Shown: one piece after another, positions 1,358 through 58,294 of the stretch | Layout of the letters: each line of letters starts with the position of its first letter | How positions within the stretch are numbered: the stretch's first letter is position 1 | Assembly: GCF_000526515.1 (NCBI RefSeq) | Contig: NZ_JAGF01000001.1 | Coordinates: 248,001-312,000 of the forward strand | Length of the DNA stretch: 64,000 nucleotides | Source of the DNA: Cellulomonas sp. KRMCY2 | Lineage (GTDB): Bacteria > Actinomycetota > Actinomycetes > Actinomycetales > Cellulomonadaceae | Reading direction: 5' to 3' | Program-made: the position numbers and the translations under genes | The notes under the pieces: model-generated | Seen by the model: the letters and a program-made list of their open reading frames with translations, nothing else | Told to the model about the DNA's origin: nothing | Databases searched by the model: none

Positions 1358-1387
1358 CTAGACGTTGAAGCGGAACTCCACCACGTT
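1358..1387 (-). other. attL with displaced native 3' end of ychF
   Basis: Read on the minus strand this stretch encodes NVVEFRFNV and then TAG, the usual C-terminus of YchF, with no gene attached. It matches the DVVEFRF just before the altered tail of the ychF copy at 57182. The shared crossover segment (minus strand GTGGAGTTCCG) is at 1371-1381. This is the left junction of the element. Confidence 0.88.
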
Positions 1388-1467
1388 CCGCGCTCGAACA
1401 ACACCACGATCCCCTGTCCAGGTGTTGAACCGCGTCCGTTCGTAGTACCGACGTGGGAGAATGGAGC

Positions 1468-2949
1468 GTGCTCCCACCCGTGCCTCTGACGCCCGCCCAG
1501 GCGGCGATCTACCTGCGGATCAGCCTCGATGCGACCGGTGAGGGCCTCGCTATCACCCGGCAGCGCGAGGATTGCATGAAGATCCTCGCCGACCGCAAGT
1601 GGGTCCTGTACGACGTGTACGAGGACTCTTCGATCTCCGCGTCGGACCGGCGGAAGGTTCGTCCTGACTACAACCGCCTCGTAGCTGATGCGAAGGCGGG
1701 GCGCTTCGAGCACGTGATCTGCTACGACCTGGACCGCCTCACCCGGCAGCCCCGCCAGCTCGAAGACTGGATCGACCTTGCTGAGGGCCGTGGTGTCACC
1801 CTCGTCACCGCGAACGGTGAGGCCGACCTCGCGACCGACGGCGGTCAGCTCTTCGCTCGGATCAAGGCGTCCGTGGCTCGGGCGGAGGTCGCGGCGAAGT
1901 CCCGCCGACAGACCCGTGCCGCTCAGCAACGAGCCGAACGGGGGCGCCCACCACTCGGCCCACGCCTGACCGCGTACCTGCCGGACGGGACTGTCGTTCC
2001 CGGTGAGGCTGAGATCGTGCAGCTGATCTTCGAACGGTTCGCCCGTGGTGACTCCCTCCGCTCCATCGCTGCCCTCCTGACAGCGAGCGACGTTCCCACG
2101 CGAACTGCGCAACGTGCAGCCCTCAAAGAAGAAGGAGAAGGAGGGGAGCGAGTGACGGTCGGGCCGGGACGGTGGAACGTTTCCTCGGTGGTCTCCATCC
2201 TCCGCAACCCCAGGTACGCCGGCCTCGTCGTCTACCAAGGGAAGCTCACCGGGACGCGGGGCACGTGGACACCGCTGGTGACCGAGGACGCGTGGCACCT
2301 CGTGCAGAACACCCTCGATGACCCTCGCCGGAAGTCGAACCGTGCTGGTACCGATCGGAAGCACATCGGGTCGGGCCTGTACCTGTGTGCCGAGTGCTTG
2401 CGGCCCATCCAGGCGTGGTCTGGTGACCGGTACCGGTGCGTTCCCTGCTCGATGGCCCGCTCCGCCGGTCCCATCGACCAGTTGGTCCTCGGACTGGTCG
2501 CAGCTCGTCTCGCACAACCTGACATCGTCGAGCTCCTCGCACCCACCATCGACGAGGACACGGTTCGCACCCTCGACTATCAGGCCCGCGTCCTGCGAGA
2601 CAAGATCGCCGTGATCGAAGCCCAGTTCGACGACGACGAGATCGACCTACCCCGCTACAAGTCCAAGAAGGGGAAGAGGGTCGCCGAACTCCAGGAAGTC
2701 GAACGCCAGCGGCTGGCGCTCGCGGGCAACAGTGCCGCGTCCCACCTCCTCCGTCATGGCGACCCCGCAGCGGCGTTCCTCGGCGAGACACTCATGGTCC
2801 AGAGGGCTGTGATCGACGCTCTGGTCGAGATCCTGCTGGTGCGTCAGCCGAGAGGCTCGCGAACGTTCAGGCCAGAGAGCGTCATTCCGACGTGGCGTCG
2901 CAGCGAGGTGGCTACGCGGCCACGTCTGAGCGTCGTACCGGCTTCCTAA
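1468..2949 (+). CDS. Large serine recombinase (site-specific integrase)
   Basis: This is a 493-residue serine integrase. The N-terminal resolvase domain has the catalytic serine in YLRIS (residue 19) and the downstream arginine-rich helix region. A recombinase domain follows, then a zinc ribbon (CAEC...CVPC, about residues 306-330), a coiled-coil stretch and a C-terminal tail. I chose the GTG at 1468 because GGGAG precedes it by about 9 bases; an in-frame GTG at 1453 is the alternative. Its position next to attL identifies it as the enzyme that inserts the element into ychF. The 3' end overlaps a small antisense gene. Confidence 0.92.
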   Translation: MLPPVPLTPAQAAIYLRISLDATGEGLAITRQREDCMKILADRKWVLYDVYEDSSISASDRRKVRPDYNRLVADAKAGRFEHVICYDLDRLTRQPRQLEDWIDLAEGRGVTLVTANGEADLATDGGQLFARIKASVARAEVAAKSRRQTRAAQQRAERGRPPLGPRLTAYLPDGTVVPGEAEIVQLIFERFARGDSLRSIAALLTASDVPTRTAQRAALKEEGEGGERVTVGPGRWNVSSVVSILRNPRYAGLVVYQGKLTGTRGTWTPLVTEDAWHLVQNTLDDPRRKSNRAGTDRKHIGSGLYLCAECLRPIQAWSGDRYRCVPCSMARSAGPIDQLVLGLVAARLAQPDIVELLAPTIDEDTVRTLDYQARVLRDKIAVIEAQFDDDEIDLPRYKSKKGKRVAELQEVERQRLALAGNSAASHLLRHGDPAAAFLGETLMVQRAVIDALVEILLVRQPRGSRTFRPESVIPTWRRSEVATRPRLSVVPAS

Positions 2950-3109
2950 CCGCGACGCTCGGAGAGAGCAGAGCCTGCAACTGCCGGCCTTGCTCGACGG
3001 TGAGCGGTGGAGCGTCGGCGACCATCCGCGCGATGTACTCGGCGATGGGGTCTGCAGGCACGACGACGGCGAGGGCCGCGGTCCGCTCATCGGGGCTGCA
3101 GGAGGTCAT
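2912..3109 (-). CDS. Small protein beside the integrase (unknown)
   Basis: A 65-residue acidic-to-neutral protein with no recognised fold. It is convergent with the integrase and overlaps its last 38 bases. Upstream of its ATG (minus strand) lie CATCGT six bases before the start, fitting a leaderless -10, and the GTATAGAC palindrome 7 bases further up. That operator recurs at other element promoters. Position, size and regulation would suit a recombination directionality factor or regulator, but nothing in the sequence proves this. Confidence 0.6.
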   Translation of the reverse strand: MTSCSPDERTAALAVVVPADPIAEYIARMVADAPPLTVEQGRQLQALLSPSVAVRKPVRRSDVAA

Positions 3110-3128
3110 GTCACTACGATGGCATCCC

Positions 3129-4472: not shown

Positions 4473-4482
4473 GGTGACCACC

Positions 4483-4848: not shown

Positions 4849-4858
4849 CACCCCTCCC

Positions 4859-17507: not shown

Positions 17508-17717
17508 ATGAGCAGCCACGAGCGGACACCAGCGGACACCAACGACCCGGAGCGCCTGTCGGTGGCCGGGGCAGCACGGCTGACCTCCCTATCGACGCGC
17601 ACCCTTCGCCGGGCGATCCAGGCCGGGCACCTGCCCGCGAGCCGGCCCACCCCCAGGCGTGTGCTCATCCGCCCTGCCGACCTGAGCGCATGGCTCGACA
17701 CTCCCTCAGCCCGATGA
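17508..17717 (+). CDS. Excisionase-type HTH protein
   Basis: A 69-residue protein, nearly all one helix-turn-helix_17-like domain: LSVAGAARLTSLSTRTLRRA, then the wing SRPTPRRVLIRPADLSAWL. The stop TGA overlaps an ATG in the frame of the next gene (ATGA at 17714), suggesting translational coupling. It is the first gene of an operon with TrbL-like, wall-hydrolase and small membrane proteins. Confidence 0.78.
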   Translation: MSSHERTPADTNDPERLSVAGAARLTSLSTRTLRRAIQAGHLPASRPTPRRVLIRPADLSAWLDTPSAR

Positions 17718-17758
17718 CCCGGCCCCGCACGACCAGCGCACGGAAGGACGTGGCAACC

Positions 17759-20176
17759 ATGACCGCACCCGCCCAGGCCCCAGCCCCCGCTCGCCGGTGG
17801 TGGCAGCGGCGAGCGATCACCGCGTCGCTCACGGCAGTCCTCGTCGGCAGCGCACTGATCGTCGGCGCCCTCGCTGGTGCTCAGCCGGCCGCCGCCGGGC
17901 CGTGCGACCCGAACCAGACCTTGGCGCCGATCGCGGGCACGGGCACCGCCGGGGTGACCAACCAGCTCCTGGATGTGGATGGGTACGCGGTCGTCACTTC
18001 TGCTGGTGGGCGCGAGGGCTACCCCGCTGGCCTGGGGCTGACTTTCAGCTCGTTCGGCCTGACCCCGTGCGGGGATGCTTTGCAGAGTGGGGCGGTCGGC
18101 ACCGCCAAGGTCTTGTGGGATGTTTTCGCCCTCCTCCCGTTGCGCTTCCTTGGTCTGATCCTCGATTTCTCACTCGGCGGGTCGCTCGCTGAAACGCTCT
18201 TGGGCTTCGCGCAGGGCCTGGTGACGGCCCTCCAGCAGCACGTTTTCGTCGCCTGGGCGCCGCTGGTGATCACCCTCGCGCTGATCACGGTCATCCTCGG
18301 GATCGCCCGCGGCCGAGGACAGAAGGGCTGGGGTGATCTGGCGTGGATGCTGATCGTCATCGCGATCGCGGGCATTTTCGCCACCCCCACGGGGATCGGG
18401 CTCGCTCAGACCGCGAACCGCGCGACCGCACAGCTGACCCGCTGTGCCGCCCTCGCACCCTCGGGCGGGTGCGAATCCGGGTCAATCTCCGACTCCGTCC
18501 TGGAGGTGTTGGTCGGCGACACGTGGGCCGCGGGGGTTCTTGGTGAGCTCGGCGCGCAGCCAGCACCGTCGAGCCTGCACTTCACCGCCGACGGGGGCGT
18601 GCCGGATATTTCCCAGGCGTGGGATGTGACAGTCCCGGTCCAGGCGATCCCGGCGCGGGTCGAGAACCAGCCCACTTGGGGTGAGGTGTGGCGGTGGACC
18701 GGGGCGTACACCGCCGCTGAGTCCTCGAGGATCTTGTCCGCCCCGGACGCGCGGTGCTCAATCTCCGGGAGCTCGCCGGAGACCATCGACATTTCGAACC
18801 CCGACTTTGCCGACCTCGAGAAGGGGGAGCTCTGCAGCTACAAGTGGGTCGTCCGTACGGCGATGCTTTCCGAGCTGGCGACCAGCTTCCCCGACAGCTA
18901 CCAGGACGCCCGCGGAGCGACCAGCTCGGGCATGACGGCCTCCCTTACCGCGCTCGGGCTGATCCCCGCGATGGTCGGCGTCGCGGCCCTCGGCATCGCC
19001 GTCTTGATGGCCGAGATCGAACTGATCCTGCTCATCGTCATCTCGCCAGTCGTCGCGCTGTTCGCCCTCAAGGACGTCGCCACTGGCCGGCGGTGGGCCG
19101 AGAAGGTCGTGGCGACGATCATCAGGAGGATCACCACCGGCGTGGTCCTGGGCCTCGTCATCTTCATGCTCGCCGCCCTGCAGCAGCTGGTCGCCGGCAC
19201 CCTGGTCGGTGCGCCCGCCGGTGCCCCGGTCGTGCCAGTGCTGCTCCGGCCGTTGGCGGTCGGTCTGCTCGGTGTCGTGGTCGCGATCGCGGGGTTCAAG
19301 CTCGCCGGGCAGGTCCGGGATATGGCACTGTCCGCTGCGGGTCTCCCTGAGGGTGACGGTCACGGCGACAAGGCGACGGGCGCAGCCAAGCAGCTCGGCC
19401 TGGGCGCGGTCGCCGCTGGTGTTGGTGCGGCGACTGCGGGTAAGGGTGCGCACTTTGCCGGGGCGGGGAAGGCCCTCCTGCACAACGGCGGCGGGCACTC
19501 CCTCCGGTCGGCGGTCAGGACCGGAGTACACGCGGGTCGTGGTGCTTCCCGTGGCCCGGTCGCCAAGGCAACCCCCGGCGACGCCGGGGACAGCGGCGAT
19601 AGCGGCGGCTTCAGCCGGGCACCCGGCGGGGAGGCGTTCGACCAGGACCCTCAAGGACACGTCGATGCTGGCCGTCGGACCAGCGACGCGTGGGCGAAGG
19701 TCATGGAGGTCCCGCAGCTGGCGGAGGCGCGTGCGGCGTCCCTGCGGGCGGCGGCAGCCCAACTCGCCGCGGCGAAGGCCGAGCTCACGGTCGCGGAGGC
19801 CCGACAGGTTGCCGCCCGTGACGCAGGTCAGGTCGCTGCGACGGCCCGCGTTGAGCAGCTCGTCGCGCAGGGCGTCGAACCTGCTGCGGCGGCCTGGCAG
19901 GCGGACGCCGAGCTGAGCGAGCGCCTCGCACCGACCATCCAGCTGGTGGCCGCCGCCCAGGAGCGAGTCGGTGCCGCGAACGTGCGGGTTGCTGCCGCGG
20001 AGCAGGGTGACGGTACAGCCCTGGCGGAAGCGGTCCGGGACGCGATCGTCGCCGGTCAGTCCGCTGACGAGGTCGCAGCCCGCCACGGCCTGGACGGTGA
20101 CGCCAGGGTTGCCCTTCGGGGCTTCGAGGACGCGCGAAGGTTCGAGCTCCGCATGGCCTACCCATCGGACTACTGA
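17759..20176 (+). CDS. TrbL/VirB6-like conjugation membrane protein
   Basis: An 805-residue protein. It has an N-terminal signal or anchor helix, an extracytoplasmic segment with Cys pairs, and several long hydrophobic helices (AWAPLVITLALITVILGIA, LGLIPAMVGVAALGIAVLM, LRPLAVGLLGVVVAIAGFKL). The C-terminal cytoplasmic region of about 250 residues is Ala/Gln-rich, helical and coiled-coil-like. Layout and size fit the TrbL/VirB6 polytopic channel subunit of actinobacterial type IV secretion. The ATG at 17759 follows GGAAGGA; an in-frame ATG at 17714 overlaps the upstream stop and is the alternative. Confidence 0.72.
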   Translation: MTAPAQAPAPARRWWQRRAITASLTAVLVGSALIVGALAGAQPAAAGPCDPNQTLAPIAGTGTAGVTNQLLDVDGYAVVTSAGGREGYPAGLGLTFSSFGLTPCGDALQSGAVGTAKVLWDVFALLPLRFLGLILDFSLGGSLAETLLGFAQGLVTALQQHVFVAWAPLVITLALITVILGIARGRGQKGWGDLAWMLIVIAIAGIFATPTGIGLAQTANRATAQLTRCAALAPSGGCESGSISDSVLEVLVGDTWAAGVLGELGAQPAPSSLHFTADGGVPDISQAWDVTVPVQAIPARVENQPTWGEVWRWTGAYTAAESSRILSAPDARCSISGSSPETIDISNPDFADLEKGELCSYKWVVRTAMLSELATSFPDSYQDARGATSSGMTASLTALGLIPAMVGVAALGIAVLMAEIELILLIVISPVVALFALKDVATGRRWAEKVVATIIRRITTGVVLGLVIFMLAALQQLVAGTLVGAPAGAPVVPVLLRPLAVGLLGVVVAIAGFKLAGQVRDMALSAAGLPEGDGHGDKATGAAKQLGLGAVAAGVGAATAGKGAHFAGAGKALLHNGGGHSLRSAVRTGVHAGRGASRGPVAKATPGDAGDSGDSGGFSRAPGGEAFDQDPQGHVDAGRRTSDAWAKVMEVPQLAEARAASLRAAAAQLAAAKAELTVAEARQVAARDAGQVAATARVEQLVAQGVEPAAAAWQADAELSERLAPTIQLVAAAQERVGAANVRVAAAEQGDGTALAEAVRDAIVAGQSADEVAARHGLDGDARVALRGFEDARRFELRMAYPSDY

Positions 20177-20177
20177 C

Positions 20178-21479
20178 GTGGGCGCCATCCTCGGGCGGCT
20201 GGCGCTCCAGCTCGCCGCCCAAGCGCTGCAGACCAAGAAGGGGCGGGCGGTGATCGCCGGGGCCGCCGCCCTGGTGTTGCTGCTCCCGCTCGCCCTGATC
20301 CTCGGGGTGGCGACGATCAGCACGGCCGCCGCACAGGATGCCTCGACCCTCGCCATCCAGGAGGAGGAAGCGATCACGGGCCGGTGCTTCGCTGACCCGG
20401 TCGCAACCGAGCAGGACGCGACACTCTGGGCGGACCTGACCGTCGCCCAGCAGGAAGCTGCGACCACAATCGTCGGGGTCGTGCGGTCTGCGACGGTCGT
20501 GCCCGGTGGGGCTGACGATCTGACCGCCCGGCAGGCGGCGGTCGTGGCGATCGCGGCATCCATGCAGGAGTCCCGCCTGACGAACCTGGGCGGCGGCGAC
20601 CAGGACTCCCTCGGTCTGTTCCAGCAGCGCCCCTCAATGGGGTGGGGGACGACGGAACAGCTCGGCGATCCGATCTACGCCACGACGGCATTCCTCTACG
20701 GCGCGACCACCAACCCCGGCCTCGTCGATGTGCCCGGCTGGCCGACCCTCTCGCTGACGATCGCAGCCCAGGCCGTCCAAAGGTCCGGGTACCCGGCCGC
20801 ATATGCGCAATGGCAGGGCTTCGCCCAGGACGTGGTCGACGAGCTGTGGGCGACCACCCCGCTCGCCGGGGTCCACCCAGCCTTGGACCGCCCCGACCTG
20901 GGTGACGCGACCACGGCGATCCTCCGGCCGGTGACCTTGGAGATCCGGGGCGGTGACGCCGGGTGCGAGCTCGTCGGGGTCGACGCCCCCACAACCACCT
21001 GGGACGGGGTCTACCGGAAGCCTGTCGAGTGGGGCGGGTACGCCAACGGGCATATTCCACCGGCCGCCATGTGCATCATCCCGTGGGCACCGACGCACCT
21101 GGCGCGCTGCGACGCGGTCACCGCCCTGACCCAGCTCAACGAGCTGTACAAGGCCGACCACGGCGGCCAGCCCCTGGGAATCAGTTCGTCCTACCGGAAC
21201 TTTGACCGGCAGGTCGAGCTCAAGCGGCAGCTGGGATACCTCGCCGCCGAGGCCGGCAAGTCGAACCACGGCCTGGGCATGGCCCTAGACCTCATCGGGT
21301 TCGGTGGGGTCGGCGACTACACCAAGCCGAACTACCTGTGGATGATGGCCAACGCCCCCGCCTTCGGGTGGGTTTCGCCCCCGTGGACGTTGCCGGGCGT
21401 CCAGGGCCCAGACGAGCCGTGGCACTGGGAGTTCATGGGCTCACCCGAGCCGCCACCGGTCGTCGCCCCCACCCCGTAG
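20178..21479 (+). CDS. VirB1-like bifunctional cell-wall hydrolase
   Basis: A 433-residue protein. An N-terminal membrane anchor (about residues 25-50) is followed by a lysozyme-like transglycosylase region (AASMQESRLTNL, then DSLGLFQQRPSMGWG, about residues 130-155). The C-terminal M15/VanY D-Ala-D-Ala carboxypeptidase domain has zinc-site motifs SNHGLGMALD and EPWHWEF. It would open the wall locally for the transfer apparatus. The GTG start lies 1 base after the upstream stop, so the pair is probably translated together. Joining both wall activities in one protein is typical of conjugation loci in Gram-positives. Confidence 0.85.
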   Translation: MGAILGRLALQLAAQALQTKKGRAVIAGAAALVLLLPLALILGVATISTAAAQDASTLAIQEEEAITGRCFADPVATEQDATLWADLTVAQQEAATTIVGVVRSATVVPGGADDLTARQAAVVAIAASMQESRLTNLGGGDQDSLGLFQQRPSMGWGTTEQLGDPIYATTAFLYGATTNPGLVDVPGWPTLSLTIAAQAVQRSGYPAAYAQWQGFAQDVVDELWATTPLAGVHPALDRPDLGDATTAILRPVTLEIRGGDAGCELVGVDAPTTTWDGVYRKPVEWGGYANGHIPPAAMCIIPWAPTHLARCDAVTALTQLNELYKADHGGQPLGISSSYRNFDRQVELKRQLGYLAAEAGKSNHGLGMALDLIGFGGVGDYTKPNYLWMMANAPAFGWVSPPWTLPGVQGPDEPWHWEFMGSPEPPPVVAPTP

Positions 21480-34800: not shown

Positions 34801-34909
34801 CAGCCAGCGGGCGTTCGATAGCACCGTCAACGGAGGCGCAGTAGCGCGTGCGACGCTAGACGGGCAACCCATTGAGATCACCTCCACGGACTTGGTGCGT
34901 GTCCCATGA
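28820..34909 (+). CDS. RCC1-Rhs polymorphic toxin (2029 residues)
   Basis: A giant secreted toxin. A signal peptide (cleavage near APASA) is followed by about seven RCC1-type repeats (LRSDGTVWAWG...GQLG, residues about 70-445), an Rhs N-terminal cap (near CDCFAGHSSGN), some 20 YD repeats (about 600-1700) and the Rhs core end (LYDMRARDYNPVTGQFLSID, PLAFIDPTG near residue 1768). The variable C-terminal about 260 residues end in a restriction-endonuclease-like tip with YYDGLVRNADG and IEVKSGGASLSASQ. The TTG at 28820 follows GGGGGA and starts the signal peptide. It would act against neighbouring cells. RCC1 as the N-terminal module is uncommon for Rhs proteins. Confidence 0.9.
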   Translation: MRARRGVLVYLLSSALVLVGLAPASASPRGDAVQSATVPTLSSLASPVPVPPSVVPLVAPRAMSVATAAAPPRSGQLVMWGYNVLGQVGDGTTVDRLTPAEVPGMTGVTSVAKGYYSTYAARSDGTAWAWGYNGQGQLGIGNEVNKTAPVQIGGLSGVVAVAAASTSGYALTSDGRVWSWGYNYHGQLGLGHGYREASPQLITSLADVVAIAGGYESALALRSDGTVWAWGWNSSGQLGVDYTTMPQSNVPVQVAGVTDVTAIATTGGTSYALRSDGTVWAWGENSMGQGGHGTWEDGTVLVPTQVTGLTDVTAIAAAYLTAYALRSDGTVWAWGYSEAGALGNGSVGGGSGASSLVPSQVIGLGAATAIGATIGNQNAQALLADGTVWTWGEGAHGALGNGSVESSGTPVQVTGVGEVSSISGDVGLAVIAGWPAPQALSLGQTFGCDCFAGHSSGNQVLAADPVNTATGGLVERFSDLSVVSVGAPVDWSRTYNSLDTSTGPFGPGWSFAYGASLTPNAAGELVLRDGSGTQTRFAAVEGGYTPVDPAVSATLSAGAGGTHVARALSGSTMTFDGTGRLVALADERGRGLALGYAGAVLTSITDSLGQTLSITWDAGTGADARIASVKSSDERSVSYVYTVTGGTKLLTGVTGVDGKITTFAYTAAGLLSQITDPLGYVSARSEFDTSGRVISQLDEMGAKTTFAYHTGAQTTATTVTDPSGRSRQYVYSGHNLVKQVDGEGNASEVFYSADNAPAMTVDPLGQVFASEYDARDNLIRRTAPSPLDYVETWTYDDANHITTYTDPAGNLTSYTYTVSGLLQTVTAADGGVTRYAYTTGAGGVPADLLASLTDPLGRVTAYAYNAKGDLTSSTSPLGRVTSYTYDAAHRVLTSTTPKGEVTSYTYDAAGRLLTTTDPLGGVTTNVYDAAGRLTKTTDAAARWESYTYDMADRLLQTTYSSGRVIKQSYDTAGRVATSTDARGKVTTFRYDDSGRLFTTTDPLGRLTANTYDSLGQLVAVRDSLDAITQYTYDPLGQLISVTDPDGITETTTYDPLGNVTATINGAGGTHTTTYDAMSHVLKALDSDGVSTRYSYDLAGQLASVAVDRSTTTPVPGYTEDRTTFTYDADGNHTTTTDPRGNVPGAVPANYTSTVTYDANGRPVTSTDQLGRIISTTYDTLGRPLTVTDPAGKVTTTAYDKIGRATQVTGPSGAITKYTYNANNDLTQVTDPRGRLTKYTYDAAGNTLTTTNPLGRVTAMTYDASGALATSTKPSGTATTTVGDSMLTYRYDRAGRLTGVDYSDTTPDLTYTYTPAGRPDVLTRAADALGAATIEYTYDDAGRPTALARTGPRPTTATYTYTPSGRIAGATWSTGQTVAYAYNTAGQLTTVNPAGTPAVPAITLGYDPAGNTTSVTRAGAAPTVSTYTYDRAGQLSALNHKAGSTLVADYQLARDPRGYPTQVTSTFLNPATGTTPATTNLYTYDANGWLTAECSPTTGTTCTSTSSKTAYTYDTAGVRKSTAVTRLSGTTPQTTTTTYGYDAADQLLTLKVGTTTNTTNTWTRDGAIATTTTTAGTRTYTTDLADEIKTIKLEDNRTIGYSYDPIGNRTARTTNNAIDTTWAWDDLTGLPTRIGEYNAADAMTTSWLPDPTSTTGSPYAVTAGNDSSWLLTDPFSNTVASIATTGSTTGAKTQAVDAFGNPLSTATPIGAIGFAGQYKDSASGLYDMRARDYNPVTGQFLSIDPLVNQTRQPYQYGNNNPLAFIDPTGLVACGPMDSGDCNGRNLIPLLNGMARALDDTGYLALHGSLTHDQRAEIGYDEMSRINIEAVNRQQHMQVCSEQEGCLPPCPDKGYQACQLARGGKLLATYAAGQAAGMVFVSLLGRACAADAAAAAGAAAKTARADSSAVAAESGGSVAGRDALGRFTGAGGYGAEAEAIGLSEYELATGQTVIRNQVRATLSEGGPGRYYDGLVRNADGTYAGIEVKSGGASLSASQRAFDSTVNGGAVARATLDGQPIEITSTDLVRVP

Positions 34910-36077: not shown

Positions 36078-37094
36078 ATGACCAGCACAGAGCTCATCGC
36101 GGTCGACCCGGCCGACGTCGTGCTGCTCGGCACTCCGACGATCAGCCGCGAGGAGGCCGACGAGATTCTCGAGCTTGCTGCGAGGGCTGTCTCCGATGGC
36201 ACGAAGCGCGCTTACGCCTCGAGCTGGCGGACCTGGACGGCGTGGTGCACCGCACGTGGGCACGAGCCGTGGTGCACCACGCCGGAGCATGCGGCCGTCC
36301 TCGGGGTGTGGATCAAGGAGCGGGCAGGGAGCGGCATCGCGATGTCCACGATCACCAAGGACCTCGCCGCGGTGTCCAAGGAGCACCTCGACGCGGGCCA
36401 ATCCGACCCGACGGCCGCGCGCGGGGTCCGCCAGGTCATGAAGGGTGCCAGGCAGAAGTACGGCATCGCTCCCAAGCGTCGCGCGCACGCCCTCACTACT
36501 GCGGAGATTCGCCGGGTGCTGGCGCAGATCGACCGGTCAACCCTGCGCGGGAAGCGTGACGCGGCGATCATCCTCACGGGCTTCGCTGGTGCGATGCGCC
36601 GCTCCGAGCTCGCGGCGCTGACTGTCGGCGACCTCGACTTCAAGGCTCGTGGTGCCGTCGTCACCCTGCGCAAGTCCAAGGCTGACCAGGAAGGCGCTGG
36701 GGTGCCCGTGGGCTTGCCCCGCGGTCAGCACCCCGAGACTGACCCGGTCGGTGCCCTACGCGCGTGGATCGCGGCCGCGAGCATCGAAGGTGCCGACCCG
36801 CTGTTCCAGCGGATCGGGCGCCGGGCCACGAAAGTCATGGACCAGGGGCTGTCCGGGGCGGCGATCTCGGAGATCCTCATCGAGCGGGCACGAGCAGCCG
36901 GCCTGGAAGACGAAGCCCTCCATGTCACGGGCCACTCTCTGCGCGCGGGTCACGCGACCCAGGCCGCCGAAGCGAAGGTCGACGTGGTCCGCCTCGCGCG
37001 CACCACCCGCCACGTCCGCCTGGAAACCCTCGCCGGCTACATCAGGCCCGCTGAGGTGCTGCACGACTCCACCGCGAACGACCTCGGGCTGTGA
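36078..37094 (+). CDS. Tyrosine recombinase (integrase/XerC-like)
   Basis: A 338-residue tyrosine recombinase. It has an N-terminal SAM-like core-binding domain (about residues 30-125) and a catalytic domain with Arg in GAMRRSEL (about 176), the H-x-x-R motif in GHSLRAGH (about 288-295) and the Tyr in LAGYIRP (about 322). GAGGGA precedes the ATG. It is a second integrase within a serine-integrase element and may mark a nested or captured element, or serve internal recombination. Two tiny coupled genes follow. Confidence 0.88.
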   Translation: MTSTELIAVDPADVVLLGTPTISREEADEILELAARAVSDGTKRAYASSWRTWTAWCTARGHEPWCTTPEHAAVLGVWIKERAGSGIAMSTITKDLAAVSKEHLDAGQSDPTAARGVRQVMKGARQKYGIAPKRRAHALTTAEIRRVLAQIDRSTLRGKRDAAIILTGFAGAMRRSELAALTVGDLDFKARGAVVTLRKSKADQEGAGVPVGLPRGQHPETDPVGALRAWIAAASIEGADPLFQRIGRRATKVMDQGLSGAAISEILIERARAAGLEDEALHVTGHSLRAGHATQAAEAKVDVVRLARTTRHVRLETLAGYIRPAEVLHDSTANDLGL

Positions 37095-41521: not shown

Positions 41522-42088
41522 TCAGGAGTCGGGTCCGCCGTCGATCAGGGCGCAGCCTGTTTCGCCGATGATTCCGGTGCCTCCGGGGCCGGCGAACATC
41601 TGCAGGGTGGCACCGTCGGGTGTGGTTGCGGCCAGGGCCTCGGCACCACCGGCAGTTCCACGGGTGATGGTGTAGCCCTTGTCACGCCAGAGCTGCTCGA
41701 CCGTGTCCAGGGTGGCTGTTGGGTCTGCGACCGGTCCGTCTTCGACAGAGTGCAGGAAGTAGCTCACGCCGTCTCGGCCGTCGTTGCGACGACAGGACAG
41801 GGGTGCCTCACGTTCGGCCAACAGCTCGCTGCTGATGCCCGCCAGCGTGGCGCTCTCCACGATGACCTCGTCCATGGCCAGGCGGTTCTCCCACGCCGAT
41901 GACTCCAGAGCGTCACGCTCAGCCTGCACGCGATCATTCCTCTCGTTCCGCTCGTTGACCGCGACGATCCCCGCCACACCAGCAACAGCGACCACACCGA
42001 CGACAACCCAGGTCAGTACCCGTCGCCTCCGGTCCTTTGGACCTGGCGGTGGACCCGCCGCGGTCTGATCGGTGGCGTTGTCGATCAC
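41522..42088 (-). CDS. Membrane-anchored protein of the WXG100-like operon
   Basis: A 188-residue protein with a Pro/Arg-rich cytoplasmic start, one transmembrane helix (VLTWVVVGVVAVAGVAGIVA) and an extracytoplasmic domain. The GTG overlaps the stop of the hydrolase gene (GTGA). In loci with WXG100-type proteins such a protein can be the immunity or docking partner; this is inferred from operon position. Confidence 0.72.
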   Translation of the reverse strand: MIDNATDQTAAGPPPGPKDRRRRVLTWVVVGVVAVAGVAGIVAVNERNERNDRVQAERDALESSAWENRLAMDEVIVESATLAGISSELLAEREAPLSCRRNDGRDGVSYFLHSVEDGPVADPTATLDTVEQLWRDKGYTITRGTAGGAEALAATTPDGATLQMFAGPGGTGIIGETGCALIDGGPDS

Positions 42089-43743
42089 GGCTGATCCTCT
42101 CCGGCGTTCGGTTCGACGGTCACAGCCTCAGGATGCCCTGTGATGACCGATGAGATGTTCCACAAGCTCTCAGTGTTCTGCCCGTAGTACTCCGAGTGCC
42201 CCTCCGCTTCGAGGGTGACCGCCTCCGCCAGGGGGTGGCTGCCGCCGTCAGTCTGGAACTGAGTTGCCCCGAAGTAGTCACTGTCCGGCCGGCGGCTGAA
42301 GTTCCCGGACAACCCGACGAGGTCACCGTCAGCCGTGCCGACGAAGACGTGGTCCTCGCTCCGGCCCATCTCGCCGACCGTCTCCGCACCGACCCCTGGT
42401 GAGCCGATGAGCACCCAGTCGTCCATCGGTGCGTCTGTTCGTGCGGTGAGCCCTCCGACCAGAGAGCCGTAGGAATGGGTCACCGCGGTCACGTGTGGCG
42501 CGTCCCCGCTGACCACGCGTGACTCACGGATGCCCCACAGGGTCGAGGCGAGTGCCGGGGCGCCCTGACGCGCGGCGTGGTCCGAGAGCACGTCAATGTC
42601 CATGGGGGCGTGGTACCCGATCCATGCGATCGTCGCAACGGTGCCCGAGCCGCCGCCCGCAGCGCTGATGGCACTGGCTGTGTGCTCAACGCGTGCCGCG
42701 TTCTCAGTGATGGTGTGCATGTAGTTGGTCACGTGGGAGCCCATGCCTGGGACAAGGACCGCGATGTGGTCGGCGGTGGCGACGTCCCCGATCGCAATTG
42801 CGGCTCTGCCCGGCAGCTCGGTGTCGAGCAGCATCAGGTGGTAGTCACCTGCGCCGTTGCCGAGCTCGTCGCGGACTGCTTCGAGCATCGTCAACTGCTC
42901 GCGGGCGTCCGCCATCTGCTGGGCGATCTGGACGTGGGGTGACGACGGGCCGGCGCGCCCGGTGATCGGCCCCAGGGCGTCGAGGCGGGCTTGCAGGCCC
43001 GTGAGGGTGGCGGCGAGCCCGCTGATCGTCGTGGTCAGTACCGACCGGTTCGCGCGGTCCCGGGCGGCAACGGGCACCCCGTCGAGGTTGCCGATCCGTT
43101 CGGGGTGACGAGCGATGAGCAAGGCCCGGGCGGTTGCGGACAGGCTCGTCCACCATGCTGCGACGAAACGCGGGTGGGCGTCAGCCGCAGGGATGTCCCG
43201 CAGGGCGATCTCGGTGACCAAGGCCCGGTCGGTGGGGTCGGAGGTGCTCCCGTCGGCGGCGGCGGTGAAGATCGAACGAACGGCGTGGGCGGCGTCCCGG
43301 TCGGCCTCCCACGCGGCCCGGATCGCCTCCTGGGCGAACCGTTCAGCGTCCTTCGCTGCCCGGTAGGCGTCTGGTTCCTGGGCGCGGTCACCACGGAAGG
43401 TGACGTACCCCTGGGTGCTGACACGCATCCCGTACTGACCGGCGAGGTCGTCGGCCCGATCAAGCAGAGCTTTGGCCGCGGTCAGTGCGTCGGCGGCGGC
43501 CACCAGTGACCGGCGCAGCATCCCGAGGGCTTCGTTGAGCACATCGAGCCGGCGCAGGGTCGTGCGGGCGTTCGCTGCGGCCGCGTCGGCCGCGTCACCT
43601 TCCCAGACACCGTTGCGGGTCAGGGCCGTCACGTCAGTGAACTCACCGGTGGCGGTGTCCACCGTGCGGCGGATCGCCTCAATGTCCCCGGAGGACACCT
43701 CCAACGCACCAGGCCGCCACGAGCGCAACAGCGGCGCGGTCAT
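42085..43743 (-). CDS. Alpha/beta-hydrolase (DUF1023-like) with WXG100-type N-terminus
   Basis: A 552-residue protein. The N-terminal about 200 residues are helical and WXG-like (TRNGVWEGDAADAAAANART). The C-terminal about 300 residues are an alpha/beta hydrolase with the nucleophile elbow THSYGSLVGG, preceded by HIAVLVPGMGSHV and followed by the acid and His regions. This matches the DUF1023 (Pfam Abhydrolase_8) proteins linked to type VII secretion in actinobacteria. The ATG at 43743 overlaps the upstream stop (ATGA). It is likely exported; a lipase or peptidase-like effector role is possible. Confidence 0.82.
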   Translation of the reverse strand: MTAPLLRSWRPGALEVSSGDIEAIRRTVDTATGEFTDVTALTRNGVWEGDAADAAAANARTTLRRLDVLNEALGMLRRSLVAAADALTAAKALLDRADDLAGQYGMRVSTQGYVTFRGDRAQEPDAYRAAKDAERFAQEAIRAAWEADRDAAHAVRSIFTAAADGSTSDPTDRALVTEIALRDIPAADAHPRFVAAWWTSLSATARALLIARHPERIGNLDGVPVAARDRANRSVLTTTISGLAATLTGLQARLDALGPITGRAGPSSPHVQIAQQMADAREQLTMLEAVRDELGNGAGDYHLMLLDTELPGRAAIAIGDVATADHIAVLVPGMGSHVTNYMHTITENAARVEHTASAISAAGGGSGTVATIAWIGYHAPMDIDVLSDHAARQGAPALASTLWGIRESRVVSGDAPHVTAVTHSYGSLVGGLTARTDAPMDDWVLIGSPGVGAETVGEMGRSEDHVFVGTADGDLVGLSGNFSRRPDSDYFGATQFQTDGGSHPLAEAVTLEAEGHSEYYGQNTESLWNISSVITGHPEAVTVEPNAGEDQP

Positions 43744-44039
43744 CGCCACGCTGGTCGCCCCGGCCGGCCGACCTGGTCGCTGGCATGGGTGTCGGTCTCG
43801 GTGTACGACCTGGCGGACGCGTCAGCGGCCTCACCCCAGGAGGCAACAGCGGTCGCAGCCGCGTTGAGCCGGTCGGAGACCTGGGCGCGGATCTCGGCCA
43901 GAGCCACGGCAAGGTCGCCACCACTGGTCGCACCCGCAGCAGACGTCAGCGGGGTCTCGGCGTCGAGCTGGCGAAGACGCGCACCGGTGTCGGTCGCGTC
44001 CACACCTGCGGTGCGCAGCCGTGCCAGGTCAACCCGCAT
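43740..44039 (-). CDS. WXG100/ESX-like small protein
   Basis: A 99-residue, two-helix protein (MRVDLARLRTAGVDATDTGA at the start, then VASWGEAADASARSYTETDT near the end). The W-G turn and the YxxxD/E-like tail fit WXG100-type substrates of type VII secretion. First gene of a coupled three-gene operon. The ATG at 44039 is preceded by AAAGGGGGC. Confidence 0.72.
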   Translation of the reverse strand: MRVDLARLRTAGVDATDTGARLRQLDAETPLTSAAGATSGGDLAVALAEIRAQVSDRLNAAATAVASWGEAADASARSYTETDTHASDQVGRPGRPAWR

Positions 44040-44111
44040 CACATGCCCCCTTTGTGCGCATCCTTCCATGTGGACCGCCGCGCCGGTGGGCAGTCCACAG
44101 GACGGCTGGGG

Positions 44112-45401
44112 CTAGACGTTGCCCCGGTACTCGGCGCTGGAGACGATGCTGGCGATGATCTGCTCGTCGCGTGCGCCGCTCTGGATGGCCCCGACCCAGG
44201 TGATAGTCCCCGACGGGTCGATGTTGCGGCGGAGCAGGTCGAGGTAGTACCCGTCCACGACGCTGGTCAGGTGCTCGGTGGAGTACAGGAACCCGATCGC
44301 GACGGTCCAGCGGTTCGCACCGTTGGCCAGCCGCTCCACCCAGTAGGTGATCTCGGCTTCCGCAGGCGCGCGGTCCAGGACGGTCGCATACAGGTCGATG
44401 ACCCACTGGCGCGGATCGGAGCCGGCCTTGGCGTAGAACTCCGGGGAGGCGATGAACCCGGCCTGCATCTGTTCGATGTGCAGGCCACGGTCCATCTCCT
44501 GCAGCCAGCCTTCGAGGCCGGCGGCGTCGGGTTCACGGCCGAGGTACCGCTGGTAGGAGGACCGGATCAGGCTGGCGCGGAACTCGCGGCTGTAGGTGAT
44601 CCCGTTGGCGACCTCACCGTAGGCCGTGCCCTGGGCCAGGGCCGTGGTCCAGCCCGCCAGGCCGGCCGGGTCGGGGTCACGGTCGAACAGGTCGCGGTAG
44701 ACCTTGGTCACGTACGCGGCGATCGCCGCGGTACTCGACGGTGTGCTCGCCCGCGGCGGCACCTCGGCGGTCGCACCAGCACACGGGCCAGCAAGCAGGG
44801 TGTTGAGGGCGTCGACCTCGGCCTGGTCGGCGGTCAGGTTCCACCGGTACTTCACCACGACCCAGTCGCTGATGTACCGGCACGTGGCTCCGCTGCTCGG
44901 GGGCAGCCACTGGGCCGGGTCCTTCTCGCCCTTGGATTGGTTGATGTTGTCGGTGACCGCCACCAGCGAGGCGCCGATGGTCAGGTCGTTGGCGTAGTCG
45001 CGCCGCTGCTCGGCGGTCCAGGCGTTCGCACCGGAGTCCCACGCCTCCGACAACGGCACCATGTGGTCGATGTCGACATCGCCTGGAACCGTCCACACTC
45101 CACCGTCGTACCAGGACTCCCAACGGCCCGAGGTCACCGTGCAGGTGCCCGAGCGGACGACCGGCACCGTGGACTCGGCGACCAGCACCTCCTGGCGGGT
45201 ATCGCACCCGTTGCCGTCGGCGTCGATCCAGTGCTCGAAGTAGGCGCGGTCGTAGGTGGTGGTGTTCTCAGCCTCGACCGGCACCGCCCGCAGCAGGTCG
45301 GCGACCGACGAGCTCACCGCGACCGCCGGCGGGGCGATCGCCACCGCACCACCCGCGACGAAGGCAACCACGGTCAGGAACGCGCAGCGACGCAGACGCA
45401 T
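44112..45401 (-). CDS. Secreted HNH nuclease with DUF4214 repeats
   Basis: A 429-residue protein. After a signal peptide (ending near PPAVAV) comes an HNH (DUF1524/GmrSD-like) nuclease: DIDHMVPLSEAWDSGA, a central Asn in RDYANDLTIG, and NQSKGEKDPAQWLPP with Cys pairs. The C-terminal about 200 residues hold DUF4214-type helical repeats (YRDLFDRDPDPAGLAGW, then YLGREPDAAGLEGWL). The ATG at 45401 lies only 7 bases from the broken end of an IS3 transposase gene, with no Shine-Dalgarno; promoter and RBS were probably lost to the insertion. Confidence 0.82.
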   Translation of the reverse strand: MRLRRCAFLTVVAFVAGGAVAIAPPAVAVSSSVADLLRAVPVEAENTTTYDRAYFEHWIDADGNGCDTRQEVLVAESTVPVVRSGTCTVTSGRWESWYDGGVWTVPGDVDIDHMVPLSEAWDSGANAWTAEQRRDYANDLTIGASLVAVTDNINQSKGEKDPAQWLPPSSGATCRYISDWVVVKYRWNLTADQAEVDALNTLLAGPCAGATAEVPPRASTPSSTAAIAAYVTKVYRDLFDRDPDPAGLAGWTTALAQGTAYGEVANGITYSREFRASLIRSSYQRYLGREPDAAGLEGWLQEMDRGLHIEQMQAGFIASPEFYAKAGSDPRQWVIDLYATVLDRAPAEAEITYWVERLANGANRWTVAIGFLYSTEHLTSVVDGYYLDLLRRNIDPSGTITWVGAIQSGARDEQIIASIVSSAEYRGNV

Positions 45402-55084: not shown

Positions 55085-55106
55085 GGTTGACCAGTGCACG
55101 TGCGCC

Positions 55107-56591
55107 CTAAGCCCCGGACCCAGGAGAGACCAGCCACTCGCGCGCGGCCCGGGCCGTTGCCCTGAGTTGAGGATGCTCCTGCACGATGGCGCGCTGTCGC
55201 TCTGCGGGTAGCCCGAGCTCCTGCATGACGTTGAGGATGACGACGGCTGTGGTCACCTCCACGACGGCGAACAGCTCTTCGAAGGAGTGACCAGGCGTCG
55301 TGCCCTCATGCGCGAGGTCATTGCGCGCTCGTGTCGTGCGTCGCGCCCACCTGTCCACATCCGGCATGAGCAAACCGATGGCCTCCTGGTCGGGACGGGC
55401 GGCAAGCGCGAGGAGCCGGTCCCGAAGCGTCGGTTCATTGCGGATTGATCCCTTAAGCCTGTCCCGGTGCTCTTCAGGGACCTGCGCAAGCATCGCGCCA
55501 CGCATGGTATCGAAGACGTCCGGGGGAAACGGCCCTTCATCGATGCCGAGCCCGCGATGTAGTACCTCGGCGGCACCGACGGCGGTCAGAAGATTGCTCT
55601 CGATGTAGCGCGCGGGTGCGTATCGGAGACCCATGATCATGTTAGTTGCCGCCCGCAACCGCCCACGCGCTTCGCCCCAGCGGGGGACGATCGTCTCGAA
55701 CGGTATTGATTCGCACGTGAAGAAGACACGGTGGTGCTCGACGGCCTTGGCATCGTGCTTGCCGAGCGCTGGGGGCGCGTAGAGCACGTCAACGCTCCGG
55801 TGCAGGGCAGGACGGTCGGCGGGCGACGCTGCGCCGATCTCCGCCAGCTCGAGTCGAAGCCAGATCACGCCGGCGGCCTGGTGTGTGGCCAGCGCGATCA
55901 GGTCCTGTACGGACCCTGCGGCCTCCAGTGCGACCGTCAACGAGAACGGCTGTGAGGGGACAACCCTCACGAACACGGTGTCGCGCATGCGCCCTACCGT
56001 GCCGCCCTTGAGTTGATCGAGAAACGGCAGCGTGCGTCGGTGCGTGAGGCGGAACTCGGTGCCGTCGACCGTGACTGACTCGGAGCCCACCGGCTTCACG
56101 GAGATGCGTCCGCTTCCGTCCGGCTTGCCTCCGGTGGTTCCCCACGAGCCCTCGAAGACCGATGAGGCCGCCCAGAGCTCAAGGTCTTCCACGGACACCT
56201 CGGCTGCGGAGAACGCTGCCTCGCCCTGCCCCCTGACGTGCGCCCCGATCAACGCCGTCGTCGCCTTCACGATCTGTCTGTCCGGGCTCTTTACTCGCGC
56301 ACCGATGGTTCGCCTGGTGCGAGTTGGTACGCAGCCGAGGAGGGTGATCTCGCGCTGCTCCGCCGCACCGTGGATCACCTCCCACGTCAGGGTCCCTTCG
56401 TGGACCGCGACGACGCCAGGCGAAAGGCTCGACATGATGCGGTCCTCGAACGCGCCGATCAGCGAAAGCGCCAAGCCGGTCTCCGGCTCGTAGCGGAGCA
56501 CGCCTGCGATCCGCTCGTCAGGATCGTCCGGCAGCCACCAGATGCCGGCCCACTCGGCGGCCTCGTCGAGGTTCAGCGGATCATTCGCCAT
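55107..56591 (-). CDS. ApeA-like abortive-infection protein (HEPN RNase)
   Basis: A 494-residue protein. The N-terminal about 270 residues match the ApeA N-terminal domain pattern (AGIWWLPDDPDERIAGVLRY, LALSLIGAF). The C-terminal domain is an ApeA-type HEPN with the RNase motif RNDLAH (about residues 424-429, R-N-x3-H) on helix TTRARNDLAHEG. ApeA proteins are phage-defence RNases that shut down translation. The ATG at 56591 follows AAGGG; a longer open frame to 56642 lacks support. Next to the DUF2199 gene in a two-gene cassette at the element's right end. Confidence 0.8.
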   Translation of the reverse strand: MANDPLNLDEAAEWAGIWWLPDDPDERIAGVLRYEPETGLALSLIGAFEDRIMSSLSPGVVAVHEGTLTWEVIHGAAEQREITLLGCVPTRTRRTIGARVKSPDRQIVKATTALIGAHVRGQGEAAFSAAEVSVEDLELWAASSVFEGSWGTTGGKPDGSGRISVKPVGSESVTVDGTEFRLTHRRTLPFLDQLKGGTVGRMRDTVFVRVVPSQPFSLTVALEAAGSVQDLIALATHQAAGVIWLRLELAEIGAASPADRPALHRSVDVLYAPPALGKHDAKAVEHHRVFFTCESIPFETIVPRWGEARGRLRAATNMIMGLRYAPARYIESNLLTAVGAAEVLHRGLGIDEGPFPPDVFDTMRGAMLAQVPEEHRDRLKGSIRNEPTLRDRLLALAARPDQEAIGLLMPDVDRWARRTTRARNDLAHEGTTPGHSFEELFAVVEVTTAVVILNVMQELGLPAERQRAIVQEHPQLRATARAAREWLVSPGSGA

Positions 56592-56659
56592 GGTTTTCGC
56601 CCTTGCACCGTAGGACAGCTGCATTTCGCCAGCGGACTCCACCGCACCTCCATCGGCGC

Positions 56660-57172
56660 TTACCCGACCGGACGCACCGGATCCCCGTCAACCGCGGCCC
56701 AGGTCGAGGTCAGCAGCGACTGCAAGCGTGGGTCTGTGCTTGAGTCGCAGTAGGGAGTGTGCTCGGGATCGCGCACGACCAGGCGGACCGGTGCCCCGAC
56801 CTCTATGTCCGGCGGCAGTGCATTGGCGAGCCTCCCATCGATGACCAGCTCGGCGTACTCCGGCTCCCACCACACCTCGGAAGCGCGCTTCAGGTCGTCG
56901 GGCGTGACACCTATCCATACGCCGAACGTCAGCTTGTGCGAGCGTCCCAACTGCACTGGGAGGAGCGCTCGAACGAAAGAACCTAAGCCCGGCACCTGCA
57001 TGAAGACGGAAGTACGGGCGTCCCCGTCGTTCATCCACCAGTCTTCGGCGTCATGCCACGGTCCGGGTTCGAGGGCCGGATCGGGCAGCGTGAAGCGCTC
57101 GTGCCGGTCCGCGACATGGAGCGCGGCGCCGCAGCACGGGCACCGCCGCCGCCCCCGCGACCAGAGCCTCAT
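56660..57172 (-). CDS. DUF2199-family protein
   Basis: A 170-residue protein with an N-terminal zinc-binding CPCCG and the DUF2199 pattern (VPGLGSFVRALLPVQL, FGVWIGVTPDDLKRAS, LANALPPDIEVG). Its start lies only 10 bases from the stop of ychF on the same strand, so it is almost surely read from the ychF promoter or from within ychF. Function of the family is unknown; here it precedes an ApeA-like gene. Confidence 0.8.
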   Translation of the reverse strand: MRLWSRGRRRCPCCGAALHVADRHERFTLPDPALEPGPWHDAEDWWMNDGDARTSVFMQVPGLGSFVRALLPVQLGRSHKLTFGVWIGVTPDDLKRASEVWWEPEYAELVIDGRLANALPPDIEVGAPVRLVVRDPEHTPYCDSSTDPRLQSLLTSTWAAVDGDPVRPVG

Positions 57173-57181
57173 CGGCCGAAA

Positions 57182-58294
57182 CTACTTCTGGTTGCCAGAT
57201 GTTACTTGGAACCGGAACTCCACGACGTCGCCGTCGGCCATGACGTAGTCCTTGCCCTCGATGCGCGCCTTGCCTGCCGCACGGGCTGCGGCGATCGAGC
57301 CGGTCTCGACGAGGTCCTCGAAGCTGATCACCTCGGCCTTGATGAAGCCGCGCTCGAAGTCGGTGTGGATCACGCCCGCGGCCTGGGGTGCGGTCCAGCC
57401 CTGGCGGATGGTCCACGCGCGGGCCTCCTTCGGGCCGGCCGTGAGGTAGGTCTGCAGACCCAGGGTGTGGAAGCCGACGTGCGCGAGCTGCGCGAGCCCG
57501 GGCTCGGTCTGGCCCGACTCGGCGAGCATCTCCGCAGCGTCCTCCGGCTCGAGCTCGGTGAGCTCCGCCTCGAGCTTGGCGTCGAGGAAGATCGCATCGG
57601 CAGGAGCCACCAGGTCGCGCATCTGCGTCTTCATCGCCTCGTCGGCCAGGCCCGCGTCGTCGGTGTTGAAGACGTAGATGAACGGCTTGGTCGTCAGGAG
57701 CTGGAGCTCTCGCAGGGCGGCCGGCTCGACACCCGCCTTGGCCAGACGGTCCTGCGCCGCGAAGAGGGTCGAGCCCTCGGCAAGGACGATCTGCGCCTGC
57801 TGCGCGGCTACCAGGACGGCCGCGTCGGTCTTCTTGCCGCGGACCTCCTTCTCGATCCGCGGCAGGGCCTTCTCGACCGTCTGCAGGTCAGCCAGGACGA
57901 GCTCGGTGTTGACCGTCTCGATGTCGTCCGCCGGGTCGACGCGGCCCTCGACGTGCACGACGTCGTCGTCCACGAAAGACCGGATGACCTGGCAGATCGC
58001 GTCTGCCTCACGGATGTTAGCGAGGAACTTGTTGCCGAGCCCCTCCCCCTCGCTCGCACCGCGCACGATGCCGGCGATGTCGACGAAGGAGACCACGGCG
58101 GGCACGAGCCGCTCCGAGCTGAAGAGGTTCCCGAGGATCTGGAGGCGGGGGTCCGGAAGGGGCACGACGCCGATGTTGGGCTCGATCGTCGCGAACGGAT
58201 AGTTCGCGGCGAGCACCTGGTTGCAGGTCAGTGCGTTGAAGAGGGTGGACTTGCCGACGTTGGGCAGGCCGACGATGCCGATGGTGAGTGCCAC
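57182..58294 (-). CDS. ychF: YchF GTPase/ATPase with element-derived C-terminal tail
   Basis: A 370-residue Obg-related P-loop protein. G1 is GLPNVGKSTLF near the N-terminus, and G3 lies near DIAGIVRGASEGEGLGNKF. A helical insert follows, and the C-terminal TGS domain includes AWTIRQGWTAPQAAGVIHTD and ERGFIKAEVISFEDL. The native end (EFRFNV) is replaced by EFRFQVTSGNQK supplied by the integrated element, so the protein keeps its length apart from six extra residues. It starts with GTG. It is a translation-associated ATPase, and its 3' end is the attachment site of the element. Confidence 0.95.
   Translation of the reverse strand: MALTIGIVGLPNVGKSTLFNALTCNQVLAANYPFATIEPNIGVVPLPDPRLQILGNLFSSERLVPAVVSFVDIAGIVRGASEGEGLGNKFLANIREADAICQVIRSFVDDDVVHVEGRVDPADDIETVNTELVLADLQTVEKALPRIEKEVRGKKTDAAVLVAAQQAQIVLAEGSTLFAAQDRLAKAGVEPAALRELQLLTTKPFIYVFNTDDAGLADEAMKTQMRDLVAPADAIFLDAKLEAELTELEPEDAAEMLAESGQTEPGLAQLAHVGFHTLGLQTYLTAGPKEARAWTIRQGWTAPQAAGVIHTDFERGFIKAEVISFEDLVETGSIAAARAAGKARIEGKDYVMADGDVVEFRFQVTSGNQK
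57190..57223. other. attR
   Basis: The element arm (57190-57212) and core CGGAACTCCAC (57213-57223), followed by the chromosomal ychF coding sequence. The ychF stop (57182-57184) and last eight codons lie in element DNA. Confidence 0.85.

Follow-up and report, generated by a model that had tools for sequence, protein, structure and literature searches.

A 56-kb Mobile Element in the Last Codons of ychF Supplies YchF with a New C-Terminal Tail

We analysed a 64,000-nucleotide stretch of the Cellulomonas sp. KRMCY2 genome (contig NZ_JAGF01000001.1, positions 248,001 to 312,000; hereafter the window) and confirmed that a mobile element of about 56 kb occupies the last codons of ychF, the gene of the GTPase YchF, and supplies YchF with a new tail. 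We regard it as very probable that this element is integrative, that its large serine integrase (large serine recombinase, LSR) joined its attP site to an attB site formed by the last ychF codons at the dinucleotide GT, that the P′ arm of attP became the new tail, and that most of the LSR set to which this integrase belongs uses the same site. Positions are given in window numbering, and negative values lie to the left of the window start on the same contig.

Junctions of the Element

At the left junction (attR), the minus strand encodes a displaced YchF 3′ end, VEFRFNV-stop (1358–1381), which is the innermost of four in the genome. It adjoins the attP P arm (1382–1412, minus strand, with a CGGAAC... 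motif) and, just inside the junction, the LSR gene on the plus strand (1453–2949), assigned from Pfam, a PHROGs integrase match, and the gene model. Its product carries Resolvase (PF00239, 1.9e-27) and Recombinase (PF07508, 2.8e-17) domains, and profile A1 matches TP901-1 and phiC31 chains; the start codon is uncertain (GTG 1453, or 1480). At the right junction (attL), ychF (57182–58294, minus strand, 370 residues) switches to a replaced C-terminus, ...DGDVVEFRFQVTSGNQK-stop, with FQVTSGNQK in place of FNV, and the codons of FQVTSGNQK-stop, including the shared GGAGTTCCG, are the P′ arm (57182–57221, minus strand). The 11-base core CGGAACTCCAC is common to both junctions (1371–1381 and 57213–57223). 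An earlier note, made from the letters of this DNA, had described this core, the switch of ychF to a new tail, the adjoining LSR, and an insertion in the ychF 3′ end that re-makes YchF, and all of these were borne out: the tail is present in 0 of the 17 same-genus relatives read, all of which end in FNV. The uninterrupted ychF that the note proposed to look for in relatives was found in the 29 best-matching ones (L004–L032, these 17 included), all ending VVEFRFNV. DNA homology to ychF ends at 57209 in 8/8 relatives, and a degenerate VEFRFNV-stop pattern has a single occurrence in the window, at 1358–1381, and none in 100 shuffles.

The same note's statement that 1358–1387 is the native YchF end held in part. 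The minus strand there does read N-V-V-E-F-R-F-N-V-stop, a YchF end, but calling it native is doubtful, as it is one of four displaced ends. The first N of NVVEFRFNV comes from the element, because the native sequence is DVVEFRFNV.

Exchange Point and the New YchF Tail

The exchange point can now be narrowed from the 11-base core to AC 1380–1381 = AC 57222–57223, which reads GT in the sense of ychF (minus strand); the element therefore spans 1382–57223 (55,842 bp). This placement draws on the dyad centre and on crossover limits from two loci. In the window, both ends share GTGGAGTTCCG; in G272, which carries a related array whose empty counterpart is G420 (see below), the outer end has the native GGTTGAATTTAG of G420 and ychF has GGTGGAGTTCCG, so that exchange falls within GGT. 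Taken together, the two limits leave GT as the overlap. Exchange would then take place at bases 1 and 2 of the second Val codon in DVVEFRFNV, and any YchF that keeps this Val has GT. Integrases of the phiC31/Bxb1/TP901-1 type have an overlap of 2 bases.

When all pairs of a tail and a displaced end within a locus were considered (25 pairs including the window, with more than one pair from some loci), the reconstructed P-GT-P′ formed a dyad about GT, with a mean match of 0.514 versus 0.152–0.314 at 24 other centres. The attP arms of these pairs thus repeat each other, inverted and imperfectly, on either side of a short identical overlap, a trait of large serine integrases. Read outward from GT, the P′ arms (61 distinct) follow gGAGTTCCG.a.cGGa.taAC.TCT and the P arms (51) follow C.cgTt.CG......a..AAC.Tc; the half-site motif common to both consists of GTT.CG at positions 4–9, AAC at 19–21, and TC at 23–24.

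In these alignments the new tail is, for the most part, a translated attP half-site. In the P′ frame, GGA (14–16) encodes Gly, ACN (20–22) Thr, and TCT (23–25) Ser, and the peptide xGxTS recurs among tails because the half-site encodes those residues; AAC and TC of the motif are found in the P arms as well, outside the gene. Beyond xGxTS the tail is variable in length. Two basic residues end 49 of the 63 distinct tails, and K or R ends 55, and these basic ends may serve the protein or the ribosome-binding site of the next gene. One group (Corynebacterium, Varibaculum, Arcanobacterium, Actinotignum) encodes FRFNVT, the native end plus Thr, with TAACCT retained. An AlphaFold model of the tailed YchF (14 rows) had a mean predicted local distance difference test score of 53, below 50 for residues 343–370, and was not used.

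An Array of Displaced ychF Ends

Three further displaced ends, at −174, −1506, and −11480, lie 1.6, 2.9, and 12.9 kb to the left of 1358–1381, and a whole-genome DNA search (E 0.01) returned four displaced ends in all, every one in this array. The conserved backbone resumes at about −13.76 kb in 8/8 relatives, with two more short matches in G007 (−13.2 to −12.9 kb and −9.1 to −8.9 kb), and the gap from ychF to the backbone is about 71 kb in this genome compared with about 1.5 to 9.5 kb in relatives. The ends at −11480 and −1506 carry a 309-bp repeat with 308 identical positions (L215:8223–8531 and 18197–18505; window −11777 to −11469 and −1803 to −1495), and this pair flanks a 10-kb segment. 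It appears that the ychF site was used repeatedly in this genome, giving the array, and that 1358–1381 is probably not the original ychF end. The outermost end is the likeliest original, because ychF homology stops at 57209 and the backbone is shared again from about −13.76 kb.

For the related array, the empty site was found: the DNA that follows ychF in G420 matches the DNA after the outermost displaced end of G272 (99.1% over 1531 bp). In the window's own case, the earlier note had expected 1333–1400 to stand next to ychF in empty-site relatives; none of the 29 relatives has DNA matching window 1–1371 next to its ychF, which on its face contradicts that expectation but is explained by the array and not by an absent insertion. 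A WYL gene just outside the left junction matches one relative's flank (38% identical, but oriented the other way with respect to ychF); it was uninformative as a native-flank marker, being found at 1e-20 only in its own genome among the 10 searched. We also rejected the idea that a changed tail blocks later insertion, since 4 loci contain 5 internal tail-like junctions, identified with a pattern that recognises 60 of 73 known tails.

Distribution among Relatives and across Actinomycetes

YchF, searched at E 1e-100, is present in 55 of 59 genomes, the window's own included. Five further relatives were read, of which G056 ends FNV, G035 ends FNT, and G032, G038, and G042 have changed tails. G032 is a second case, with a 16.2-kb element, the ychF tail SGLTSGNKK, a displaced NVVEFRFNV-stop 16.2 kb downstream, and an LSR 43% identical to that of the window. 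Across the order, a search with the tailed YchF end matched 389 of 396 genomes. Among 30 loci whose ychF ends were read, 14 were changed; 16 more stretches, picked because the search suggested a tail, were all changed, five of these genomes being already among the 14. Changed ends are present in at least 27 of the 389 genomes (among them G194 and the window's own genome, G000).

Genome contigs gave 178 LSR loci, of which the best 80 were kept. Of these, 15 have ychF together with a displaced end, 34 ychF only, 15 a displaced end only, and 16 neither. A changed or displaced ychF end accompanies the integrase at 63 of the 80. These 63 loci come from 8 orders and 33 named genera, including Corynebacterium, Nocardia, Mycolicibacterium, Brevibacterium, Kocuria, Rothia, Varibaculum, and Cutibacterium. 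The window shares the traits of this set, with its changed ychF end and its displaced VEFRFNV end beside the integrase, and most of this large actinobacterial LSR set appears to use the ychF 3′ site.

Two unusual arrangements were noted among these loci. In Rothia aeria (L193), a family integrase lies about 50 nt past a ychF that still ends in FRFNV, where a P′ motif was not seen. In L084 and L085 (G195) and L086 (G290), extra ychF 3′ halves of 146–159 codons, ending FRFNV, stand serially downstream of ychF; elements that carry such long copies may preserve an intact gene by another route.

In a quick tree of 114 integrases, labelled by whether a ychF junction was found at the locus, one branch of 92 rows holds 73 labelled ones (72 without Rothia aeria), and the label is clustered (14 changes versus a shuffle mean of 29.5, with 0 of 500 shuffles as low). 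Some unlabelled rows reflect short flanks: Arthrobacter koreensis L163 is unlabelled, and the identical integrase of G155 has a junction further out. Other unlabelled rows may have other targets. Microbacterium phage integrases are 42–46% identical over 65–77% of the query (41.5–41.8% in three more), and the ychF core was not seen in 6.9 kb around one of them. Plasmids gave no match to the G186 integrase at 1e-50, and viral contigs gave none to the window integrase and one to the G264 integrase. L109, a contig with a family integrase (408–1757) adjoining a displaced VEFRFNV end (352), is from IMG/VR, and such elements are therefore counted among viral contigs.

Segments without an Integrase

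With the tail pattern that recognises 60 of 73 known tails, 42 segments in 30 loci were found to have junctions on both sides; some of the loci are near copies (L179 and L192, for example). A family LSR is present in 20 and absent at 1e-10 from 22, and 17 of these 22 are 0.6–4.5 kb long with exact ends. One such cassette of 1,936 bp is collinear from GT to GT in three species, G042, G346, and G143 (L046:3060–4996; L095:1143–3079; L107, reverse strand, 811–2747), with no DNA similarity among them in the next 1.5 kb. Its cargo is a DUF262-type gene, matching PADLOC Orf5/HEC-06 in G042 and G346. The cassette is more alike than ychF between G042 and G143 (95.7% versus 86.6% identical) and between G042 and G346 (91.6% versus 86.1%), but no more alike than the host gene between G346 and G143 (93.7% versus 95.5%). 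The best LSR match in the cassette genomes is 1.2e-42, over profile positions 8–209. At the second cassette junction in G346 and G143, the left arm is ychF-like, not P-like, and fits no simple scheme. In L095 and L107 the cargo protein itself continues into a YchF-like end, ...DGDxVEFRSGLTSGGK(K/R).

Fourteen genomes with changed ends have no family LSR in the stretch fetched; 8 of them have a displaced FNV-type end and 2 an internal tail-like junction. The remaining four (G159, G220, G335, G429) bear on the earlier question of whether such a tail occurs without an element: their ychF ends are changed, and the stretches fetched hold neither a family LSR nor a displaced end.

Cargo behind the ychF Stop

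In the window, a DUF2199 gene (56660–57172, minus strand, 170 residues) starts 9 nt past the ychF stop, and the second gene after the stop is an ApeA-like HEPN defence gene (55107–56591, minus strand; PADLOC PDC-S58). G038 has an ApeA homologue, 70% identical, 17 nt after its own tail. The first same-strand open reading frame (ORF) of at least 200 residues starts at the ychF stop or no more than 60 nt from it at 41 of 64 changed versus 8 of 52 native ends (Fisher 9e-8), and overlaps the stop by four bases at 14/64 versus 0/52 (Fisher 2e-4), in tests that ignore relatedness; such near-stop ORFs are cargo or integrase. In L173, a type III methyltransferase aligns from residue 1 at a GTG that overlaps the ychF stop. 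This spacing is consistent with coupling of cargo to ychF.

Among hand-picked cargo, 9 of 10 proteins (8 loci) match PADLOC. This choice was biased toward restriction-modification-like sizes, and 20 elements were therefore drawn at random among those not already tested, taking the first same-strand ORF of at least 200 residues. Eight of the 20 have a PADLOC match at 1e-10, compared with 2 of 10 native-end controls. Among the 12 without a match, 8 are, by coordinates, the integrase itself. The PADLOC methyltransferase and ATPase models are broad.

Other Genes in and around the Element

Pfam was given 40 ORFs (38 inside the element) and PHROGs 10, smaller ORFs being left out. A tyrosine-type integrase (36078–37094, plus strand; Pfam Phage_integrase, PHROGs) in the middle of the element perhaps marks a nested element. 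The ORF at 28820–34909 (2029 residues, RCC1 and RHS repeats) has a strong base skew, with GC skew to −0.25, and its product is likely a polymorphic-toxin-type protein. A gene with WXG100-like and alpha/beta-hydrolase regions lies at 42085–43743, and the interval 42085–45401 also holds a DUF4214 gene with a GmrSD_C match. Together with transposases, the tyrosine integrase, the RHS/RCC1 protein, and the WXG100-hydrolase suggest a composite island. A VanY-type peptidase-domain ORF at 20178–21479 has PHROG matches to tape-measure and endolysin families; conjugal-transfer matches to 17714–20176 are weak and below the cut-off (9.8e-5, 0.0027). Two proteins of 820 and 869 residues matched neither Pfam nor PHROGs, and the PDB gave no useful match for them. 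Outside the element, directly upstream of ychF, a tandem GTCGTGCGGGTG-type repeat (58330–58480) is followed by an IS1595-family transposase (58576–59532).

Discussion

In the mechanism that we propose, the LSR would recombine the attP of the element with attB, the last codons of ychF. The host would keep ychF up to GT and read on through the P′ arm as codons, giving VEFR + FQVTSGNQK, and the severed FRFNV end would remain beyond the P arm at the opposite junction. Read-through or translational coupling would allow the cargo, here DUF2199 followed by ApeA, to be expressed from ychF, and repeated use of the site would build the array with its four displaced ends. The proposal takes its observations from the junctions, their recurrence across the family, the empty site of the related array, and the dyad symmetry; the window's own integrase is the putative catalyst, and the tailed YchF would presumably remain functional. 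Several points weigh against it. No empty site of the window's own element was found when window 1–1371 was compared with the ychF flanks of the 29 relatives. Seventeen of the 80 LSR loci are without a changed or displaced end (the 16 with neither and Rothia aeria, unchanged), and although several of them have short flanks, they may use another target. The junction label needs at least 13 changes on the tree and does not appear to mark one clean clade, although flanks are often too short; the branch of the window integrase is long (0.87), and a Microbacterium phage integrase and two relatives grouping with it show no ychF junction. The Fisher tests on ORF placement disregard relatedness, as stated, and the window's own first ORF of this size, at least 200 residues, is 540 nt from the ychF stop, the nearer DUF2199 gene being shorter.

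Viewed alone, the window would most simply be read as a single LSR insertion with an intact junction, in which ychF originally ended at 1358–1387 and the ends to the left of it stem from separate events or have no relation to it. We find this unlikely: all three of those ends are on the ychF strand and, with 1381, mark the only four such places in the genome, the common backbone resumes at about −13.76 kb in 8/8 relatives, apart from the two short nearer matches in G007, and a G007 stretch 1.15 kb past its ychF stop maps 1.4 kb beyond the outermost displaced end. We give very little credence to the idea that TSGxxKK tails are native YchF variants near which elements lie by chance. It gains from the 14 changed-end genomes without a family LSR in the stretch fetched, four of them also without a displaced end there, and from 12 such or related genomes searched whole, in which an LSR at E 1e-20 was found in 4, the best (1.2e-42) weaker than all order-wide matches (1e-70 limit). 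However, a displaced end lies downstream in 8 of the 14 and an internal tail-like junction in 2 others, the G272 array ends at the flank that comes after ychF in the empty G420, and the tail DNA follows the attP half-site, with a mirror motif in the P arm outside the gene.

Phages commonly carry LSRs, and 20178–21479 has the tape-measure and endolysin matches noted above; that the 55.8-kb element is a prophage is nevertheless highly improbable, as a VanY-type peptidase domain is present in that ORF, neither a capsid, portal, or terminase gene nor a clear tail gene was seen among the ORFs given to Pfam and PHROGs (small ORFs were not all searched), and a megablast of 20001–44000 matched no phage record. 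A closer contest concerns the small integrase-less segments, which may be remnants of decayed larger elements or products of homologous recombination among repeated ychF ends, with no LSR acting in trans; we consider this quite possible, if somewhat short of probable. The 309-bp repeat at two ends in this genome, the ychF-like left arm at the second cassette junction in two of three species, the long ychF 3′ copies in G195 and G290, the want of a close family LSR in the cassette genomes, and the G346/G143 comparison all fit such an origin. The 1,936-bp cassette, by contrast, runs from GT to GT in three species with dissimilar DNA beyond it and exceeds ychF in identity in both comparisons with G042, and 17 of the 22 integrase-less segments have exact ends.

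Phage 21 and e14 insert in the 3′ end of E. coli icd and restore the gene. A similar arrangement, the integrative and mobilizable element Tn7089 in the last 52 nt of pneumococcal rpsI, appears in the portion of PMC10383233 consulted. The window element resembles these inserters in that the host gene is re-completed by element DNA, and differs from them in using a serine integrase and in a tail that is no host copy (except in the FRFNVT type) and carries an integrase half-site. The pneumococcal prophages PPH005 (PMC8637289) and PhiBM6001.4 (PMC10383233), as far as the portions consulted describe them, adjoin ychF with an intergenic attB upstream of it, whereas the window site is within the ychF 3′ codons, so that the likeness is one of neighbourhood only. 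Like the integrases of phiC31, Bxb1, and TP901-1, the window LSR combines Resolvase and Recombinase domains, distinct attB and attP, and a short overlap. In the LSR survey of Durrant et al. (PMC10083194), the portion consulted describes diverse LSRs that share a conserved site inside a coding gene, one such site lying in a prolyl isomerase gene; by comparison with that portion, a target in the last ychF codons and an attP arm that supplies a new C-terminus are distinctive. The main text of the survey contains no mention of ychF, GTPase, or DUF933 (its supplementary site table was outside the search), the consulted portions of PMC8637289, PMC10083194, PMC5726852, PMC1796617, PMC8460829, PMC6951406, and PMC10383233 do not name ychF as an LSR target, and a full-text literature search, which did not extend to the supplementary tables of the survey, found no paper naming ychF as an LSR site in the text covered.

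An integrative element that uses the last ychF codons as attB would make this integrase part of an LSR family in many Actinomycetes with natural att sites defined to the base, its target fixed by a conserved protein, since Val codons begin with GT. A DNA-binding site here would double as the coding sequence for the C-terminus of an ancient GTPase, and comparison of the natural tails makes YchF C-terminal function testable. In integrons, gene cassettes that are small, lack an integrase, and have exact ends are lined up behind a host-proximal site that stays fixed. The small integrase-less segments with exact ends stacked behind ychF are like them in the way they would work (attC and IntI were not searched for), and differ in their GT-centred ychF ends, their link to a serine integrase, and the in-frame fusion of the host gene. 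Tentatively, and with slightly less confidence than we give to recombination or decay as the source of the small segments, we suggest that the Actinomycetes ychF 3′ end could be an integron-like platform run by serine integrases, in which an attP arm serves simultaneously as a binding site, as a replacement C-terminus, and as the start of translationally coupled, often anti-phage cargo, and in which small GT-bounded, integrase-less cassettes are moved in trans and stack. The finding points to a chromosomal location that gathers defence genes behind a host gene, and if such a platform exists, each arrival would set its often anti-phage gene directly behind a housekeeping gene.

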